The notes under the pieces: generated by a model | The model's database searches: none | What the model was told of the DNA's origin: nothing | Seen by the model: the letters and a program-made list of their open reading frames with translations, nothing else | In this document: positions 1,417 through 1,784 of the stretch, piece by piece | How positions within the stretch are numbered: position 1 is the first letter of the stretch | Layout: every line of letters begins with the position of its first letter | Program-made: the position numbers and the translations under genes | Origin: an uncultured Burkholderiales bacterium | GTDB lineage: Bacteria; Pseudomonadota; Gammaproteobacteria; Burkholderiales; Thiobacillaceae | DNA: 64,000 nucleotides | Assembly (NCBI GenBank): GCA_938038385.1 | Contig: CALHRD010000022.1 | Coordinates: forward strand, 1 to 64,000 | Reading direction: 5' to 3'

Positions 1417-1599
1417 TCACTCCTTGATGCCCAGATATTTCCGGATATGTTTTGCCAGGAGGTCGTCGATATCGTTGTGGCGGGGGATCGGTTGTTTTTG
1501 GCCGGTCTTCGGGTTGAGGTAGATGTCGTGCCGTCCGCCGTGCCGCAGGAATACACAGCCGGCCTCGAGCAACTGGCGGATCAGCTCAGAGCGCTTCAC
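1417..1599 (-). CDS. hicA: HicA-family mRNA interferase toxin
   Basis: A 60-residue protein with the HicA/YcfA double-stranded-RNA-binding-like fold. It has the glycine-histidine catalytic stretch (RHGGRHDIY), the IPRHND strand and a C-terminal lysine-rich helix ending KYLGI. HicA proteins are ribosome-independent RNases that cleave mRNA. It starts with GTG, which overlaps the hicB stop codon (GTGA), so translation is coupled to the antitoxin. The pair lies between gltB and gltD on the same strand, with 5 nt to gltB and 11 nt to gltD, and should be co-transcribed with glutamate synthase. Full length for the family. Toxicity in this host is not demonstrated by the sequence. Confidence 0.9.
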
Positions 1600-1784
1600 A
1601 CCACGATCTCTTTGACCTCGTATTGCTCGGGCACGTCTTCCATGACCATGCTCAGATAAGCGTCCTTGAGGTTCTCTTCGAGTTCCTCCAGCGTTTCACC
1701 CTGGCTCATGATCTCAGGGTGTTCCAACAGTTTGCCCACCCAGAAACGATCCGACTTCCAATAGGCCATCTTCAGTTGCTGCAT
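1596..1784 (-). CDS. hicB: HicB-family antitoxin
   Basis: A 62-residue HicB-like antitoxin. It carries the partial RNase-H-like core (YWKSDRFWVGKLLEHPEIMSQGETLEELEENLKDAY) seen in short HicB proteins, without a C-terminal DNA-binding domain. It begins at an ATG 5 nt after the gltB stop and overlaps hicA by 4 nt. Antitoxin-before-toxin order and coupling fit a functional pair in which HicB masks HicA. With no visible DNA-binding domain, autorepression is uncertain; expression probably follows the gltB promoter. Confidence 0.88.
   Translation of the reverse strand: MQQLKMAYWKSDRFWVGKLLEHPEIMSQGETLEELEENLKDAYLSMVMEDVPEQYEVKEIVV

Follow-up and report, generated by a model that had tools for sequence, protein, structure and literature searches.

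Type II toxin–antitoxin pairs recur and turn over between gltB and gltD in the Thiobacillaceae

Results

A HicBA pair lies between the two glutamate synthase genes

The window analyzed here is a 64,000-nt stretch from one contig of an uncultured Burkholderiales bacterium (family Thiobacillaceae), whose assembly (2.56 Mb, 140 contigs) is coded G000 among its relatives. Its first genes lie on the minus strand. In the direction of transcription, gltB, encoding the large subunit of glutamate synthase (1790–6244; NF008730, 2509.6 bits), is followed by a 5-nt spacer (1785–1789), a hicB-like antitoxin gene with an ATG start (1596–1784; 62 aa), a hicA toxin gene with a GTG start (1417–1599; 60 aa), a spacer of 11 nt (1406–1416), and gltD, encoding the small subunit (2–1405; TIGR01318, 782.3 bits). 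The two small genes overlap by 4 nt. The ATG of gltD is at 1405, and the gene is truncated at 2 by the edge of the contig, with its stop codon falling outside. The G+C content is 55% between gltB and gltD, versus 0.65–0.71 in most neighboring windows of 500 bases. An earlier note on this DNA had described a HicBA pair between gltB and gltD, on their strand and 5 and 11 nt from them, and its coordinates are exact. Within the genus, G027 and G019 also carry the same pair at the same junction, which makes chance or misassembly very unlikely; misassembly as the source was ruled out because separate assemblies have pairs at the junction.

The toxin matches the HicA family PF07927 with 41.3 bits (cut-off 27), residues 4–58 aligning to positions 2–58 of the 58-position profile; neither NCBIfam nor PADLOC gave a match. 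HicA family members are mRNA interferases, and H24 of this protein, which we take to have a catalytic role, is invariant in three orthologues. Its predicted model (pLDDT 86.1) has the H-E-E-E-H order of the dsRBD-like α-β-β-β-α fold, and six of its best seven PDB matches in a fold search were HicA or HicAB structures (6hpb twice, 6g26 twice, 4p78, and 4c26), with TM-scores by query length of 0.62–0.83 and every E-value above 0.001. A sequence search of HicA and HicB against solved structures returned nothing.

The antitoxin scored 16.2 bits against PF21748/UPF0150, under the cut-off of 27.3, and we consider it HicB-like by its position, size, and linkage to HicA together with this weak sub-threshold match. 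Its predicted model (β-β-α-β) is of low confidence, with pLDDT of 74.8 at best and 48.9–74.8 across five models, and comparison of this model with the PDB gave no match at E < 1 and no HicB structure. At 62 aa the protein has no room for a DNA-binding domain and no Pfam match to one, which bears out the earlier note on this point. That note also set the pair apart from typical autoregulated toxin–antitoxin loci. The contrast holds in that autoregulation through a DNA-binding antitoxin finds no basis here, and it weakens in that a missing domain is not unusual for HicB: the text of Makarova et al. (2009; PMC2701414) that bears on this describes the HicB domain itself as most likely not DNA-binding, with an RHH or HTH domain fused to it in some members (“often” elsewhere in the same paper).

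The two small overlapping genes are kept together in G000, G027, and G019, as in a type II pair, with hicB identities of 94% to G027 and 82% to G019. Both genes have low dN/dS between G000 and G027 (0.027/0.75 for hicB and 0.037/0.36 for hicA). HicB-like frames directly 5′ of a hicA match were also seen at other places of genomes of genus g4 (loci L011 and L012). A plasmid search at E 1e-5 gave two distant HicA matches and no HicB match, and thus no mobile donor was found among plasmids.

A second toxin–antitoxin pair, with a PIN-domain toxin and a MazE-type antitoxin, occupies 44118–44807 (minus strand) of the window within a BREX-type defense cluster. It is flanked by a brxC/pglY-like gene (44855–48313) and a pglX-like gene (40783–44121), the latter overlapped by the toxin gene by 4 nt. 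The cluster continues at 32555–38408 (minus strand) with genes for a PglZ-like protein, a GmrSD-type restriction enzyme, and an Hsp70-like protein.

Expression signals at the junction

Expression of the pair had been proposed to be tied to nitrogen metabolism through its place in the operon, with a separate hicBA promoter named as a finding that would count against it. A scan of positions 1300–6500, itself weak evidence, gave one promoter-like match, upstream of gltB, and none directly 5′ of hicB. The same kind of scan, equally weak as evidence, found no terminator-like match between gltB and gltD; the lone match (2827–2812) is inside gltB, against 2.8 such matches expected by chance. Combined with the shared strand and the 5/−4/11-nt spacing, these weak scans lead us to infer co-transcription with gltBD. 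Given a promoter-like match only ahead of gltB and no intervening terminator-like match, both genes would be carried on the gltB transcript and the antitoxin is probably translated by re-initiation.

The last codons of gltB (GAAGGAT TGA) hold a Shine–Dalgarno-like AAGGA, which in the window lies 5′ of hicB. Most pair-free relatives of genera g2–g5, g8, and g9 have a gltB–gltD gap of 4 nt with AAGGA just 5′ of gltD, and the motif is present in the last 18 nt of gltB at 17 of the 18 pair-free junctions of these genera. The sequence at this point is ..GAAGGATTGA-TGCG-ATG in pair-free relatives such as G008 and ..GAAGGATTGA-GCCCG-ATG(hicB) in G000; the hicB start occupies the former place of the gltD start, and a Shine–Dalgarno-like AAAGGAA, partly within the hicA stop, now lies 5′ of gltD. 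At the pair-free junctions of g6, g7, and g12, where the end of gltB is longer, AAGGA was found in 0 out of 48, so a borrowed ribosome-binding site would apply only to part of the family. A Shine–Dalgarno-like motif precedes gltD in 11 out of 22 cassettes (0/9 in g6 and g7).

Unrelated pairs occupy the same junction in five genera

A GltD start was found at E 1e-50 in 89 out of 117 family genomes, and the remaining 28 stand outside the counts. We measured 88 gltB|gltD junctions in 87 genomes, leaving out G028 and contig C73 of G095 (contig ends) and G076 (partial match). One genome, G054, was counted twice (two contigs; contamination 8%), its second contig falling among g7 on the flank tree. 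Comparing the gltBD loci of relatives for the insertion, as the earlier note had suggested, recovered HicBA in G027 and G019 and, across the family, a type II pair or its remnant at 22 of the 88 junctions. These belong to at least three unrelated kinds (HicA/HicB, Unstab_antitox–ParE, and DUF433–DUF5615). The other 66 junctions had no pair and a median spacer of 4 nt; they include six genomes with inserts of 146–267 nt in which no pair was recognizable. Two of g7 (L105 in G055 and L121 in G088) share a similar 267-nt insert, possibly a palindromic repeat element.

Pairs were observed in five genera: g1 (4/4), g11 (1/1), g4 (8/10), g6 (1/7), and g7 (8/48). Within g1, to which the window belongs, HicBA is present in G000, G027, and G019, and Unstab_antitox–ParE in G011. 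The g11 cassette has the order HicA–HicB and a broken hicA frame. An Unstab_antitox gene was found in 18 of the 22 cassettes, including the fused remnant of G050 and the cassette of G060, where a DUF433–DUF5615 pair occupies the place of the toxin, replacing ParE. We take DUF433–DUF5615 to be a toxin–antitoxin pair; Pfam lists both domains as of unknown function, and there was a sub-threshold PIN-like match.

Pfam was run on a subset of the cassettes; for the remainder, assignment relied on the similarity of the translated frames. Both partners exceeded the Pfam cut-offs in G011, G003, G117, and G071; in G015 the antitoxin did and the toxin fell just short (22.7 vs. 23 bits). Also above the cut-offs were DUF433 and DUF5615 of G060, HicB_lk_antitox of G010, and the toxin of G121, and below them the toxin of G054 and the broken HicA of G010. 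A custom antitoxin profile matched all 18 Unstab_antitox cassettes. At E 1e-5, 18 out of 149 PF09720 genes in the 117 family genomes were located at this junction. A strict seed profile left the antitoxin tree with only four copies from outside the junction, too few to show whether the gltBD copies form a lineage of their own.

Control junctions and other families

As controls, we examined his and atp regions (18 and 16, respectively, from 21 pair-carrying genomes, with automatic ORF picking), counting only junctions of ≤60 nt in the reference G011. None of the 201 tight junctions (96 his-region and 105 atp-region instances) held a pair, and three gaps exceeded 120 nt, the largest being 206 nt. 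The ≤60-nt limit in G011 caused the controls to miss murA|hisG, which we added separately. There, a pair that we take to be Phd-like/PIN-like was present in two out of four g1 genomes (L210 in G011, 5915–6525, minus strand; L213 in G019) and absent from the same junction in G000 and G027. Since murA|hisG is occupied in two genomes, gltB|gltD is not the sole such slot.

Among the matches listed, we collected 63 loci that have this type of gltBD and belong to other families of the order. One was too short; none of the remaining 62 junctions, with spacers of 1–226 nt, held a pair. A further set of 80 named loci yielded 78 measured junctions, with a pair only in L130 and L136, which are the family genomes G019 and G052; at least seven of the other 76 are family genomes again. 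Non-family spacers in this set reached 350 nt with no recognizable pair, and for two of the 80 the available DNA contained no gltB match, so a longer insert is possible there. Fisher tests of 22/88 against 2/205 and against 0/62 (the latter among the matches listed) ignore kinship and are a guide only. Within these samples, a pair at gltB|gltD is restricted to the family.

Turnover, decay, and recombination

The flank tree required at least 10 changes between presence and absence, and 12 by type, with many weak forks; the 22 occupied junctions are non-independent cases. The toxin frame was broken or gone in five of the 22 cassettes (G010, G054, G083, G052, and G050), and an antitoxin frame was present in all 22. 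Toxin-first breakage is what one would expect if the toxin matters, and assembly errors may explain part of it. The ParE cassettes of g7 include mosaics: comparing those of G121 and G117 in 60-column windows gave identities of 100% and 93% for the first two, 32%–67% for the next six, and 97% and 90% for the final pair. Closely matching ends that enclose divergent cores suggest that recombination has occurred inside the cassette.

The start of gltD is duplicated in G027, where a 58-bp copy, identical to the genome's own gltD at 57 of 58 positions, lies between gltB and hicB (L020, 2220–2163, minus strand). We considered this copy as an insertion mark and dropped it: G000 and G027 share the hicA–gltD join, and the copy looks recent.

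Discussion

We propose that addictive pairs have repeatedly come to occupy the gltB|gltD junction, where they borrow gltB transcription, turn over at a high rate, and persist mainly through selfish maintenance, a reading that we hold with moderate confidence. A HicBA cassette would have inserted cleanly between the gltB stop codon and the gltD start codon, where it would use the gltB promoter and the ribosome-binding site within the last gltB codons while bringing a new ribosome-binding site for gltD. Re-initiation behind gltB would yield HicB before HicA, and HicB would keep the toxin inactive. Because HicB has no DNA-binding domain, its supply would depend on gltBD transcription, and given that dependence, loss of the cassette or a drop in the transcript would free HicA and penalize the cell. 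The junction would act as a landing and exchange slot that various type II pairs enter and in which they recombine and degenerate, the toxin going first, and from which they disappear.

One could go further and picture a dedicated exchange slot, in which unrelated cassettes replace one another through homologous recombination in gltB, gltD, and the conserved ends of the cassettes. All of them would depend on transcription of glutamate synthase, and the operon would serve as a sentinel that, once silent, brings death or arrest to the cell. We regard this picture as rather unlikely.

The reading put forward in the earlier note is a domesticated regulator: when nitrogen status lowers glutamate synthase transcription, HicA is freed and growth slows. 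Nitrogen control of the toxin is possible given the anatomy of the operon and an antitoxin devoid of a DNA-binding domain, and the spread of junction pairs over five genera and the low dN/dS of a HicBA pair kept in three of the four genomes of its genus are in keeping with such a role. Against this, 66 of the 88 family junctions do without a pair, unrelated toxins occupy the site within a single genus (ParE-type in G011), and five of the 22 toxin frames are broken or gone. Turnover at the junction speaks against a conserved regulatory role, and we consider a domesticated regulator unlikely. Empty junctions, unlike kinds within one genus, and decay are a better fit to a selfish, addictive cassette than to a conserved nitrogen regulator.

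The broken toxins, the fused remnant of G050, and the pairless inserts in six genomes would also be expected of inert passengers, that is, decaying cassettes tolerated at a permissive, well-transcribed site and exerting no addiction. The low dN/dS of hicA and hicB and the retention of an antitoxin frame in every cassette argue against this explanation, which we judge improbable. About as doubtful is a pair that guards the operon, the toxin being set free whenever the transcript is lost, so that gltBD or its transcription is shielded against loss, disruption, or takeover: guarding toxin–antitoxin pairs exist, and recurrence at one housekeeping operon and the more frequent breakage of toxin than of antitoxin frames would agree with one here, but gltB adjoins gltD with no guard at three-quarters of the family junctions (66/88).

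Why there are so many chromosomal toxin–antitoxin pairs is a long-standing question that is still open. A series of junctions that are empty, occupied by unrelated pairs, or scarred lets selfish maintenance and regulation be tested directly against each other, the shared flanks serving as an internal control. The slot also shows how a pair lacking its own promoter might live within the expression of an enzyme central to nitrogen metabolism.

Among the titles and abstract openings listed from the open-access literature, we found no report of a toxin–antitoxin pair in gltBD or of a junction that unrelated pairs use repeatedly, a search that does not establish absence from print. Individual pairs inserted in metabolic operons have been described before; what is new is a slot that is used again and again. 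In Escherichia coli, mazEF lies downstream of relA and has its own regulation. The pair described here resembles mazEF in sharing an operon with a metabolic or stress gene, and differs in lying between two subunits of one enzyme. It resembles known HicA–HicB systems (PF07927 with HicB/UPF0150) in its HicA family, predicted fold, and small overlapping two-gene operon. Unlike them, the antitoxin gene comes first and encodes a short HicB-like protein that is below the Pfam cut-off and has no DNA-binding domain, the scan gave no promoter of its own, and the pair is embedded between gltB and gltD. The closest parallel is an MNT–HEPN pair within a lysine biosynthesis operon of Thermus thermophilus HB8 that is absent from HB27, as described in the pertinent text of Makarova et al. 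(2009; PMC2701414). Both are toxin–antitoxin-type pairs in an amino-acid biosynthesis operon and vary between strains. Unlike the T. thermophilus example, which in that text is one case with one module type, the Thiobacillaceae have at least three unrelated kinds at one junction, spread over five genera.
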